Assembly: GCA_021811185.1 (NCBI GenBank)
Contig: JAJZPL010000021.1
Location: 1-53,580 of the forward strand
DNA: 53,580 bases
Direction: 5' to 3'
Source: a bacterium
GTDB lineage: Bacteria; Elusimicrobiota; Elusimicrobia; Elusimicrobiales; UBA9959
Under the pieces are notes generated by a model. That model saw nothing but the letters and a program-made list of their open reading frames with translations, did not search any database and was not told the DNA's origin. Shown one piece after another: positions 29,789-33,253 of this stretch. The position numbers and the translations under genes are program-made. Within the stretch, counting starts at the first letter, position 1, and each line of letters opens with the position of its first letter.

Positions 29789-31279
29789 TTATGCCTTTAC
29801 CGCTTCCGAAGAGGGCAGGTAGCCCTTAACCTCGGAGACTATCTTTTCCGCGTAAGCCTTGTCCTCAAGACCTTCCGCGTTAATGAAAACGTTCTCGGCC
29901 GCGCAGCGTATGGCCGTCTCCAGCTGGTAGCCGGCGCTGCGGTAATCCGAGACCACCTGGGGCGAAACGTAGGCGGCGCAGACCTGCAGCCCGGCCAGGG
30001 CCTCGGAGGCCAGCCTGGCGGTCTTCAGGGGCACCTCGGCGGCGTGCTTCAGCGCGGCCTGCATCTTCACCTTGCGCTCCGGGTTATCCTTGGGTATCTT
30101 CATGGCTTCCATGAAGCCGTCGAAAGAAGCCGAGTCCTCGGCCACGCAGTTCTGCAGCGCCACCTTGTGGGAACCGAGCCGTTCCGAGAGGTCGCGCATG
30201 GCGGGCTTCTTGGCCTCGTCGAGCTTCTTGCTCCGGAGGCTGATGCCCAGGGCCATCTGCCCGAGGGCGCAGCCCATGGCGCCGTTCACCGCGCCGGCGG
30301 AACCGCCGCCGGGCGTGGGGTCGGTATTGGCGAGCGCGTCCACGAACAGGTTGGCCGCGGCCTGCCAGGAGCTCAGCAGTTTCAGGAGTTTCGTCTCCAG
30401 CACCTGCTCGTCTTTCTTGAAATCCTGCACTTTCAGCGCCTCCACCGCGTAGTCGGTGATGGCGTCCTGCGTGGTGAGGCCGATCAGCTCGGTGCCGGTG
30501 ACGGCGATGTTCTTGGGGGCCAGCTCTTTGGCCAGCTCGTCCATCACGCGCTTGATCGAAGTGGTGTGGTAGTCGGTCAGCACGGTGGACATCTGCACCT
30601 GGCCCTTGGACTCGAGGAAGATCTCCTTGGCGCGCAGGGCCGGCAGGCCGCCGCCGGAGGTGCGGATCTTCTTGGCCAGGCCCTTGGCGAATTCCATGTC
30701 GGTGGTGGCCAGGTTCACGTTGAAGTTCACGATCTGGTTGCGGGCGCCCACGGCCATGGCGCCGGCGGTGGGGTGGATATGGTTGGGCCCGAAATCCGGC
30801 ACGCGCTCGGGGTTGGTGCCGATCTCGGCGCGCAGCCCTTCGAACTGGCCCTTGCGCACCTTGGCGAGGTCCTTGCGGTGCTCGAACTTGGCGGCGCGGT
30901 CGTACAGGTAGACCGGGATATTCAGCTCACGGCCGATCCGCTCGCCGGCGATCTCGGCCAGCTTTATGCAGTCCTCGATCGTGGATTCCATCACGGGGAT
31001 GAAAGGGGCCACGTCGGTGGCGCCCATGCGGGGATGCTCGCCCTTGTGGTGGTTCAGGTCTATCAGCTGGGAAGCTTTCTTGGTGACGGCGAACATCGCG
31101 TCGGCGGCGGTCTCCACCGGGGCGATGAAAGTGAGCACGGTGCGGTTGTGATCGGCGTCCTTTTCGACGTCCAGCACCAGCACCCCGGGCACGGACCGGG
31201 CCGCGTCCACTATGGCGTTTATCTTGGCGACATCGCGCCCTTCGCTGAAATTCGGCACGCATTCCACAAATTTTCCCAT
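29789..31279 (-). CDS. ftcD: bifunctional glutamate formiminotransferase / formimino-THF cyclodeaminase
   Basis: 496 residues with GGAGG at the right distance. N-terminal formiminotransferase (about 1-300): VECVPNFSEGRD, HNRTVLTF, NHHKGEHPRMGATDVAPFIP, and GARNQIVNFNVNL. C-terminal cyclodeaminase (about 310-490): DALANTDPTPGGGSAGAVNGAMGCAL, the glycine-rich FTCD_C signature. Mammals use the same fusion (541 aa). It transfers the formimino group of formiminoglutamate to tetrahydrofolate and then releases ammonia, giving glutamate and methenyl-THF. This completes the Hut pathway whose other genes begin 9.3 kb downstream on the same strand. A promoter at 31333-31328 makes it the likely first gene of that long run. 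Confidence 0.96.
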   Translation of the reverse strand: MGKFVECVPNFSEGRDVAKINAIVDAARSVPGVLVLDVEKDADHNRTVLTFIAPVETAADAMFAVTKKASQLIDLNHHKGEHPRMGATDVAPFIPVMESTIEDCIKLAEIAGERIGRELNIPVYLYDRAAKFEHRKDLAKVRKGQFEGLRAEIGTNPERVPDFGPNHIHPTAGAMAVGARNQIVNFNVNLATTDMEFAKGLAKKIRTSGGGLPALRAKEIFLESKGQVQMSTVLTDYHTTSIKRVMDELAKELAPKNIAVTGTELIGLTTQDAITDYAVEALKVQDFKKDEQVLETKLLKLLSSWQAAANLFVDALANTDPTPGGGSAGAVNGAMGCALGQMALGISLRSKKLDEAKKPAMRDLSERLGSHKVALQNCVAEDSASFDGFMEAMKIPKDNPERKVKMQAALKHAAEVPLKTARLASEALAGLQVCAAYVSPQVVSDYRSAGYQLETAIRCAAENVFINAEGLEDKAYAEKIVSEVKGYLPSSEAVKA

Positions 31280-31384: not shown

Positions 31385-31471
31385 CTATAAAATCGAAAAC
31401 CCGCTTTTGGCGGGTTTTCGCTTCCTCTATCTTCGAGGAGTTCACAGTTGGAGGCCATTTACTGGCGTCCA
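31385..31471 (-). ncRNA. candidate stand-alone small RNA, about 87 nt
   Basis: Reading the minus strand, a near-consensus promoter (31505-31477) would start transcription near 31470. The RNA would begin with hairpin 1 (TTGGA-GCCA at 31472-31463 pairing with TGGC-TCCAA at 31457-31448, one mismatch), then a 5-bp hairpin (TCCTC/GAGGA, 31440-31424 region), then an 11-bp perfect terminator stem (31420-31410 with 31404-31394, loop CAAAA) followed by a T-rich run. There is no ORF longer than a few codons. It lies between the end of the beta-barrel gene (31515) and the start of ftcD (31279). I do not recognise an RNA family. The alternative reading is simply a terminator for the upstream operon, but that would not explain the promoter. 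Confidence 0.5.
31394..31420 (-). terminator. intrinsic terminator
   Basis: An 11-bp perfect stem (CGAAAACCCGC with its complement) around a 5-base loop, followed on the minus strand by ATTTTATAG and, 7 bases later, TTTTT. It ends the candidate small RNA and probably any transcript reading through from the beta-barrel operon. It also separates that operon from ftcD. Confidence 0.8.
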
Positions 31472-31476
31472 ATGAT

Positions 31477-31505
31477 AGTATAGCAGACCGGCCTTGACTT
31501 GTCAA
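31477..31505 (-). promoter_or_regulatory. near-consensus sigma-70 promoter of the candidate small RNA
   Basis: On the minus strand TTGACA (31505-31500), a 17-base spacer, and TATACT (31482-31477) preceded by TGC. This is the best -35/-10 match I found in the window. The -35 lies within a perfect 7-bp palindrome (CCTTGAC-TT-GTCAAGG, 31492-31507) which could be an operator. Confidence 0.7.
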
Positions 31506-31514
31506 GGGGAGCGG

Positions 31515-32171
31515 TCATCTCGCGGGGGCGGCCGCCCGGTCCTTCCACACCCCGTAGTGCAGCGCCAGCATGAGGTTCAGGTTATCGGCGACGTTCAGGT
31601 TGAAATTATTGCCCTTCATGTTGAAGACATGGTGCCAGCGCAGATCCAACCCTATCCTTGTCCCCCACCAGAACGGGTATGAAACCCCGCCCCCCAGGTT
31701 GATCCCGGCGCTGGAGCCGGAATCGGAATCGTAACGAACTCCGGCAGCGGCATAGGCCGGCTGGTTCCACTGGTAAAGGCCCGCGCCAAGTATACCGTAA
31801 TAAACAGCATTCTCCTGGGGGAAGGACACCCTTACAAAAGGCGTAAGCGAGAAAAACCTCAACTCCATGGCCTTTACCGTGCGGTTCTGGTGTTTAAGGG
31901 AATAACCGGTTTCGAGGCCGTAACTCAGCACCTCGTCCACCCGCTTCGAGGCTGCCAGGCTGAAAGCCTGTGAAGGTTTGAAGCCGGCGTCCTTATCCCC
32001 CCAATGCCCGGAGAAAGGCACCGCCGCGCCGCCGGCGGCTGTAACGTACCCCGCCAGGTAGCGGGTGGGTTCGGGCAGGTCCTCAAGCCCCGGCAGGGCG
32101 GCAGTCTGCGCCGCGCCAGGGCGGCCCAGAGCGCAGATCAAGAAAAGGGCCAGCGCCCGGGCCAGCCTCAT
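31515..32171 (-). CDS. exported predicted outer-membrane beta-barrel protein
   Basis: 218 residues from the ATG at 32171 (GGGGAG upstream); the frame continues 81 codons further but overlaps the epimerase gene in shadow sequence. A signal peptide ends GAAQ. The remainder alternates polar and aromatic/hydrophobic residues in strands (YGLETGYSL, FFSLTPFVRVSF, YYGILGAGLYQW, SAGINLGGGVSYPF, IGLDLRWHHVF, LNLMLALHYGVW) and resembles OmpW/OmpA-type eight-stranded barrels. Function unknown. It starts 4 bases inside the epimerase gene end, so it is translationally coupled and belongs to the envelope gene run upstream. Confidence 0.7.
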   Translation of the reverse strand: MRLARALALFLICALGRPGAAQTAALPGLEDLPEPTRYLAGYVTAAGGAAVPFSGHWGDKDAGFKPSQAFSLAASKRVDEVLSYGLETGYSLKHQNRTVKAMELRFFSLTPFVRVSFPQENAVYYGILGAGLYQWNQPAYAAAGVRYDSDSGSSAGINLGGGVSYPFWWGTRIGLDLRWHHVFNMKGNNFNLNVADNLNLMLALHYGVWKDRAAAPAR

Positions 32172-33253
32172 TTTTCTCCCCGGGGCAGCACGCCTATGCC
32201 GGCTTTCACGCGGTCGAGGGAATACACCCCGTCCCTGGAAAGGAAACCGGCGCCGGTCATGCCGCTGTCCTTTATAAAGAACGGCGTATCCAGGTCCGTA
32301 AAGTCGAAACCGCCGAGCCCGCCGGCGAACTCCGCCGCCGCGGCCGAGGCCAGCTCGCTTTCCAGCATCTCGCCCATCATCAGCTTCACGCCTTTGGCGC
32401 GGGCCAGCGCCCACACCTCGCGCGCGCGCAGGAAGCCCAGTTTCGTCAGTTTAATGTTGACCGCGGTAACTGTCCCGGCGCGGATCATCCGGAAAACGTC
32501 GTCCAGGGAATAGGCCGACTCGTCGGCGCAGACCGGCATGGAGAGCTTGCGGGAAAGGTAGGCGAGGCCGTCCAGGTCGTCCTTGGCCACCGGCTGCTCC
32601 AGCACCGCGGGCCGGATGCCGCGGGCGGCCAGTTTGGCTATGAACTTCTCCGCCTCTTTAGCCCCGTAGGCGCAGTTGGCGTCGAGGTAGATGGCGCAGC
32701 CGGGCGCGGCCTTCTTCACGGCCTCGAGCCGCCTGAAATCTTCGTCCATGTCGGAGCCCGTCTTCACCTTGAAGATCCTGAAGCCGCGCGCGCGCATCTT
32801 TTTCGTAAAGCTCAAAGCGGCGTCCGCCCCGCCGATAACCACCGTGATGTCGGTCTTCAGCGCGGGGGTCCTGCCGCCGAAGAACTTCCACAGCGACACG
32901 CCCTGCAGGCGGCAGGCCAGGTCCAGCACGGCCATCTGCGCGGCGGCCAGCGCCGCCCTGTTGCCGTCGAGCGCCTCCTCCAGCTTGCAGAGCGCGCCCA
33001 AATAATTGTCCATGTTCAGGCCGGTCAGCAGTTCCCCCGCCCGGCGCAGGCTCTTGGCCGTCCGCCCGCGGGTCTCGCCGGTTATGTGCGTGGCGATGGC
33101 CGCCTCGCCGCAGCCTTTCACCCCGCCCGCCGCTTCCAGCGTGAACACCAGGTTCTCGAGGCTCCGGTGGCTGCCGGTGGAGATAGTGAACGGCGTGAAC
33201 AGCTCGGCGTCCAGCTCCTTGACCGAGAATTTCTTTATGATCGAGTCTTTCAT
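32168..33253 (-). CDS. enolase-superfamily dipeptide epimerase (L-Ala-D/L-Glu epimerase type)
   Basis: 361 residues. N-terminal capping domain, then the barrel: IFKVKTGSDMDEDF with the KxK catalytic pair, metal ligands Asp in YLDANCAYG, Glu in AVLEQPV, Asp in CADESAY, and the opposite Lys in VNIKLTKLGF. The KxK plus Lys set with DES is typical of dipeptide epimerases (YcjG/YkfB), which recycle the L-Ala-D-Glu of peptidoglycan. Muconate or o-succinylbenzoate enzymes are related alternatives. The start overlaps the WecA-type gene by ATGA and the stop overlaps the barrel gene, so the cassette is tightly coupled. Other wall-recycling genes nearby include murQ at 45230. Confidence 0.85.
   Translation of the reverse strand: MKDSIIKKFSVKELDAELFTPFTISTGSHRSLENLVFTLEAAGGVKGCGEAAIATHITGETRGRTAKSLRRAGELLTGLNMDNYLGALCKLEEALDGNRAALAAAQMAVLDLACRLQGVSLWKFFGGRTPALKTDITVVIGGADAALSFTKKMRARGFRIFKVKTGSDMDEDFRRLEAVKKAAPGCAIYLDANCAYGAKEAEKFIAKLAARGIRPAVLEQPVAKDDLDGLAYLSRKLSMPVCADESAYSLDDVFRMIRAGTVTAVNIKLTKLGFLRAREVWALARAKGVKLMMGEMLESELASAAAAEFAGGLGGFDFTDLDTPFFIKDSGMTGAGFLSRDGVYSLDRVKAGIGVLPRGEK

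Follow-up and report, generated by a model that had tools for sequence, protein, structure and literature searches.

The locus between an outer-membrane beta-barrel protein gene and ftcD, on the minus strand of an Elusimicrobia contig, raises the question of whether a short intergenic stretch is a small-RNA gene in its own right and, if so, how its product might act. The window analyzed here is the whole stretch of DNA, 53,580 nucleotides long. A preliminary description made from the letters alone had reported TTGACA, a 17-base spacer and TGC-TATACT on this strand, and both the sequence and a promoter scan place this arrangement at 31505-31477, with a score of 11 out of 12; the scan of 6.5 kb returned 2 sites where 1.1 were expected. 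The three hairpins reported downstream, the last of them a perfect stem of 11 pairs, are recovered by folding; the fold energy is -38.7 kcal/mol, whereas shuffled sequences average -17.3 (sd 3.07; z -6.96), with 0 of 200 shuffles folding as well. ATTTTATAG stands directly behind the P3 stem on the minus strand, and the T-rich tail that had been described there is present but modest. Transcription would begin near 31470 and end near 31385, the start of the predicted RNA being taken from the promoter and its end from the terminator-like stem (Table 1). The predicted short intergenic RNA is framed by its own promoter and an intrinsic terminator, both predicted from sequence, as in trans-encoded sRNAs. 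The tRNA search of the window returned none.

Table 1. Features of the small-RNA locus, in coordinates of the window, and the basis of each assignment
Feature	Position	Strand	Basis
-35 hexamer TTGACA	31505-31500	minus	promoter scan; TTGACA in 47/48 copies
-10 hexamer TATACT, with TGC just before it as an extended -10	31482-31477	minus	sequence and promoter scan
Dyad CCTTGAC-AA-GTCAAGG over the -35, candidate operator	31507-31492	minus	inner dyad kept in 37/48 copies
Predicted small RNA, about 85-87 nt	31471-31385	minus	fold, covariance model, covariation
Hairpin P1, conserved C-C mismatch in stem	31471-31449	minus	fold, covariation
P1-P2 linker, running into AACUCCCC (AACUCCUC in the window)	31448-31440	minus	fold
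Hairpin P2, C-rich 5' arm as proposed pairing segment	31439-31423	minus	fold, covariation
Hairpin P3, intrinsic-terminator-like, 11 pairs, 5-nt loop	31420-31394	minus	fold, covariation
ftcD (formiminotransferase-cyclodeaminase), usual downstream neighbor	29789-31279	minus	
Outer-membrane beta-barrel protein gene upstream, ending just short of the -35	31515-32414	minus	

To survey relatives, we used a covariance model (R2) of the transcript only, made from 36 copies with the structure set by hand, since the RNAalifold structure lacked P2 as well as the outer portion of P1, and some rows have the P2 arm shifted by one base. The first R2 search gave 73 matches, 36 of which are the element; the rest were dropped, 36 of them as matches to the terminator stem read on the opposite strand (17.8-34.3 bits) and one, in L040, as a contig-edge fragment (16.2 bits). 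R2 matches were found in 45 of the 59 genomes of the host's family; the score is at least 64.7 bits in 42 of these and 38-46 bits in three, and the window itself matches at 31386-31474 (94.9 bits). The remaining 14 genomes gave no match at E <= 1e-5 under strict filters that lose weak matches. The 45 genomes hold 48 copies: each has a single one apart from three genomes of genus g12, which carry two each, one second copy (L176) scoring 38.4 bits. When 198 genomes from across the phylum were searched, 13 of them, all of the host's family, gave matches above 60 bits, and the best match outside it reached 34.4 bits. Seventeen weak loci (L075-L091, at most 34.4 bits; 16 in the sister family and L078 in the host's) were rejected as copies: TTGAC is absent from the 60 nt ahead of each, and they resemble ordinary terminators built of an A-tract, a GC stem and a T-tract. 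A nucleotide search with a 136 bp query matched 36 of 61 genomes including the host's own, 28 of them over at least 100 bases, and many further matches covered the promoter alone or the terminator alone.

Promoter and hairpins are thus retained together in relatives, which is the conservation that the preliminary description had proposed as a check. TTGACA precedes every copy except L176, the weak second copy of its genome. The -35 had been placed inside a palindrome with 7-bp arms; such a palindrome is present in the window, but only its inner 5 bp, TTGAC..GTCAA, are conserved, in 37 of the 48 copies. Three copies (L029, L042, L057) have lost the right half of the dyad and share an altered -10 region, TAAAACAT instead of TATAATAT, which may reflect a change in how the promoter is controlled; the usual -10 is retained in other copies that lack the dyad. 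Rfam 15 gave 0 matches at gathering score over the whole window, in agreement with the earlier failure to assign the RNA to a known family. At a lax threshold (E up to 5) the element drew 13 matches, each falling far short of its cut-off and 8 of them on the opposite strand, the best at 20.9 bits against a cut-off of 70. The predicted RNA is a new family of a known kind.

Covariation was counted over 39 copies at E <= 1e-8, in an alignment that was fitted to the model structure, so that the numbers lean towards that structure; in it, 94.4% of pair cells hold standard pairs. Changes on both sides of a pair affect 11 of the 24 pairs and 75 cells, where shuffling gives a mean of 21.2 and 0 of 500 shuffles reach as high. 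A weaker measure, the number of further pair types, stands at 22 against 19.4 when shuffled, a value reached by 25 of 500 shuffles. If the partner column is slid by one to three columns, pairing drops to 36-52% and 4-17 double-change cells remain. Compensatory changes are found in 6 of 8 pairs in P1, in 3 of 5 in P2 and in 2 of 11 in P3, where 7 pairs never vary and the covariation is of A-U/U-A and G-C/C-G type. Within P1, a C (31/39 copies) lies opposite a C (35/39) at a conserved mismatch. The compensatory changes in all three helices back a conserved RNA structure.

A further question is whether the transcript might instead be a short protein-coding mRNA. It had been described as having no ORF, which does not hold, since it contains an ATG frame of 30 codons and a GTG frame of 35 codons, and a GTG at a similar place opens a frame of at least 22 codons in 22 of 46 copies. 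That GTG is missing or its frame is shorter than 20 codons in the other 24, loop lengths vary by one or two bases, no ribosome-binding site was seen before the GTG, and the changes that do occur preserve pairing. As neither frame is conserved among the 46 copies, we reject a coding role, which is now highly improbable. A divergent housekeeping RNA such as SRP RNA, which might be suspected because the small SRP model RF00169 found nothing in the host's own genome (93.57% complete), is scarcely credible. No SRP family is among the 13 lax Rfam matches at the element, which went unmatched in 14 of the 59 genomes of the family and occurs twice per genome in one genus. The loop of P2 also varies in length and sequence, whereas the SRP RNA tetraloop is not known to vary in this way. 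Regarding the SRP RNA of the host (genome G000) itself, the model matched 11 of 14 control genomes, and this RNA may be divergent, missing or unassembled there.

Another alternative makes the RNA a 5' leader of ftcD, with P3 serving as a conditional terminator, i.e. an attenuator or riboswitch. ftcD lies on the same strand within 300 nt downstream in 34 of 47 readable copies, its start about 73-282 nt away; the count covers 47 of the 48 copies, with L150 left out as its contig ends 154 nt downstream. In the other 13 copies, ftcD is not the next same-strand gene within 300 nt, and the element is thus not tied to one downstream gene. It is oriented away from ftcD at the weak but promoter-bearing L173 and L175, and is separated from ftcD by an opposite-strand gene at L031 (an M28 peptidase) and L049. 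A glycosyltransferase gene stands ahead of ftcD at L036 and L163 (two copies each) and at L177 (one). The next gene is acetate kinase at L165, a UPF0004/radical-SAM gene at L168 and an ArsR regulator at L174, and at L176 an FtcD match is absent from 6 kb. Moreover, of 42 regions upstream of ftcD, 33 carry a TATAAT belonging to ftcD itself (shuffle rate 2.6%), which is also present at L046 and L053, where the element search found nothing; in the window this hexamer lies between the RNA and the ftcD ATG. The consensus fold also showed no alternative pairing that could act as an antiterminator. The changes of neighbor and ftcD's own promoter largely refute a leader or riboswitch, which we consider very unlikely. 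Because the flanking genes change while promoter, helices and terminator-like stem stay together, the RNA is better placed in trans. The gene arrangement in the window also needs correction: ftcD is indeed downstream, but the run that it heads, previously read as histidine/Etf, continues with acyl-CoA dehydrogenase and two Etf subunits. An action on neighboring mRNAs, as had been suggested, is weakened by the variation of the neighbor between genera. Taken with conservation and covariation, this independence from neighbors supports the original reading of the locus, whose predicted anatomy is that of a stand-alone small-RNA gene, conserved and independently placed. Its product may be abundant and regulatory, as the preliminary description put it.

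How a free-standing RNA of about 85 nt would act is suggested by its C-rich segment, AACUCCCC (AACUCCUC in the window), which lies where the linker meets the 5' arm of P2. Our tentative preference, held at somewhat under even chances, is for action in trans by base-pairing with mRNAs, the C-rich segment pairing with G-rich ribosome-binding sites. The RNA would be transcribed from its own promoter, terminated and released; the segment would then open onto G-rich ribosome-binding sites and block translation by pairing with them, and this pairing would need no Hfq, ProQ or CsrA. A dimeric regulator bound to TTGAC-NN-GTCAA over the -35 would keep the gene repressed and come off in response to a signal. 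Of the 39 copies, 27 have AACUCCCC without any change, and the window reads CUCCUC with a matching GAGGA arm; C occupies alignment columns 44-46 in 38, 39 and 38 of the 39 copies, and A40 is present in 39 of 39. In the predicted folds, the segment is mostly paired (mean unpaired 0.08-0.27 over columns 43-47), while the linker has a mean unpaired value of 0.63-0.85 across the 39 copies and is partly paired with the 3' tail in the window fold. The C-rich arm agrees with the consensus in 182 of 195 cells and its partner arm in 176 of 195. Conservation of the C-rich arm may accordingly be purely structural and is by itself no proof of a pairing role; we lowered our confidence in base-pairing because this arm is hardly more conserved than its partner.

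Targets were sought through GGGGAGTTC, which occurs up to 10 nt before an ATG at 127 places against 39 for the reversed control and is present in all 32 genomes of the genus, two of the 127 places being the small-RNA gene itself on the other strand. A frame is open for at least 30 codons upstream, as within a gene, at 21 of the 30 GGGGAGTTC loci that were read, and these G-rich sites are ordinary ribosome-binding sequence. For the best lead, smc, the start could be read in 20 genomes (27 loci tried), and the nine-base complement is intact there in 3; no conserved target mRNA emerged from the GGGGAGTTC search of the 32 genus genomes and this follow-up. Regarding helper proteins, Hfq, which an Hfq-dependent sRNA would require in its host, was found in 0 of 21 genomes by a search whose control matched in 5 of 14 known genomes. 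Neither CsrA (control matched in 3 of 14 known genomes) nor ProQ (1 of 14) was found in the host's own genome.

The failure to find a conserved mRNA target, together with the C-rich arm being little more conserved than its partner, would be expected if the RNA instead bound a protein. In such a scheme, the covarying P1 with its C-C mismatch would be a docking site, and the RNA would sequester or modulate its partner, either an RNA-binding protein or RNA polymerase, without pairing with any mRNA. The shape of P1 is kept by compensatory changes while its sequence varies, and the mismatch is conserved. Against this, CsrA was not found in the host's own genome, the GGA motifs sit in stems, and the RNA is far shorter than 6S RNA, whose model matched 0 of 21 genomes (a weak result, as the control matched in 5 of 14 known genomes). 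We regard protein binding as rather unlikely, and retain base-pairing as the working interpretation.

The dyad over the -35 leads beyond this gene. The exact 12-mer TTGACAAGTCAA occurs 7 times in the host's own genome and 0 times in reversed control. TTGACANGTCAA, one of whose four forms is its own reverse complement and is counted twice, has 457 matches against 13 for the control across 37 genomes of the host's family. In the sister family, 24 genomes gave 6 matches against 14 for the control, which is background. The -35 dyad recurs about ten times per genome in the host's family. A scripted check found a -10-like hexamer at 16-17 nt in 5 of the 7 own-genome sites; L092 has TATAAC at 17 nt, which the rule of the check excludes, and at L095 the dyad lies upstream of a second TTGACA-16-TATACT. 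This sharing of the -35 dyad suggests a shared regulon. The position following TTGACA is variable but GTCAA is retained, which makes a dimeric regulator likely; this protein is predicted to bind the dyad. The histidine regulator HisR was considered and rejected: its described operator is 20 bp long, with one site in Elusimicrobium minutum upstream of the hisR-his operon, and differs from the 12-bp dyad (PMC9413887).

What the dyad sites drive was read by eye. Of the seven TTGACAAGTCAA sites, one belongs to this RNA and one to another conserved short RNA, three go with copies of a G/U-rich transcript, and two with apparent protein-gene leaders. The second short RNA candidate, found at L135 and at L095 (C38 of the host's own genome, where it follows the dyad at 1501-1512 closely on the minus strand), consists of TTGACA-16-TATACT, a GGAGCGG...CCGCTCC hairpin, TTTGAGGGAGACAG and a GC-rich terminator-like stem; it occurs in two genomes (G000 and G009), folds with z -5.9 and has no Rfam match. 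For the G/U-rich transcripts of the host (L094, L096, L097), the dyad promoter is followed by TGTAGTCCTGATCTTT or a near form and then by a long and highly variable G/U/C-rich tract, about 390 nt in L096, that ends in a terminator-like stem. Relatives include L100, L102, L105, L106, L109, L110 and L112-L116, among others. One copy folds no better than shuffles (z 0.11), and the tested copies have no Rfam match. Frames stay open through the GC-rich tract, one of 257 codons overlapping it in L096, and the transcripts look non-coding as a prediction that these open frames keep short of proof. In five genomes (L099, L107, L108, L118, L129), the dyad promoter is followed by a candidate hairpin RNA of about 50 nt, GGGTCCGCAGCCCCTCTCAGTGGGTTTCTTGCGGGCCC-like, and then a T-rich stretch, one copy folding with z -4.9. 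At L092, L111, L122, L126, L128, L134, L136 and L137, it is followed by a conserved leader, AACTTTGCCTTGAACGCC...AAGGAAAGTT-like, ahead of a protein that starts with a QYVIGGTVAVVILGLWVSLPLM-like segment. A further leader after a dyad promoter, at L093 (C26 of the host's own genome), carries GAACTCCCC in the same sense as the conserved segment of the RNA, as a decoy or by chance. It is conceivable, if on balance doubtful, that TTGAC-NN-GTCAA over the -35 marks a family-wide regulon rich in non-coding RNAs, a layer of RNA control operating without Hfq, ProQ and CsrA.

Searches of the open-access literature, judged partly from titles, found no report of a small regulatory RNA in Elusimicrobia. 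With a covariance model for this family-wide RNA, it can be counted directly in existing metatranscriptomes. Should the base-pairing interpretation be true, it would represent natural sRNA control where Hfq, ProQ and CsrA are not detected, and the shared -35 dyad may offer an entry point to a regulon in a phylum that has received little study.

Several known RNAs offer points of comparison. The C-rich (UCCC) sRNAs of Firmicutes, such as RsaE/RoxS and RNAIII, are short RNAs that bring a C-rich segment, carried in C-rich loops, to ribosome-binding sites. The Elusimicrobia RNA resembles them in being short, in its C-rich segment and in the ribosome-binding site proposed as its target, but differs in phylum and architecture, in carrying the C-rich segment in a stem arm, and in having no Rfam match. 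CsrB and RsmZ are stand-alone, structured protein sponges with several hairpins, and the present RNA shares these general traits with them; unlike them, it has no GGA in the hairpin loops of the window fold, in a genome where CsrA was not found. With 6S RNA (RF00013) it shares a free-standing, structured form, but it has about half the length and three separate hairpins, and gives no RF00013 match. The closest parallel may be sX13 of Xanthomonas, which was compared in sequence via Rfam only and otherwise by description. According to its published account, sX13 is a conserved, Hfq-independent RNA of 115 nt with three stem-loops, and its C-rich motifs target G-rich ones located close to start codons (PMC3771888). 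The two RNAs have in common three hairpins, a C-rich motif, conservation and, as proposed here, action without Hfq. In sX13, as described there, the 4C/5C motifs lie in loops and the 5' region is unstructured, whereas here the CUCCCC positions are mostly paired and the C-rich segment occupies a stem arm and linker; sX13 resides at the polA locus, while the Elusimicrobia RNA is mostly found beside ftcD (PMC3771888).
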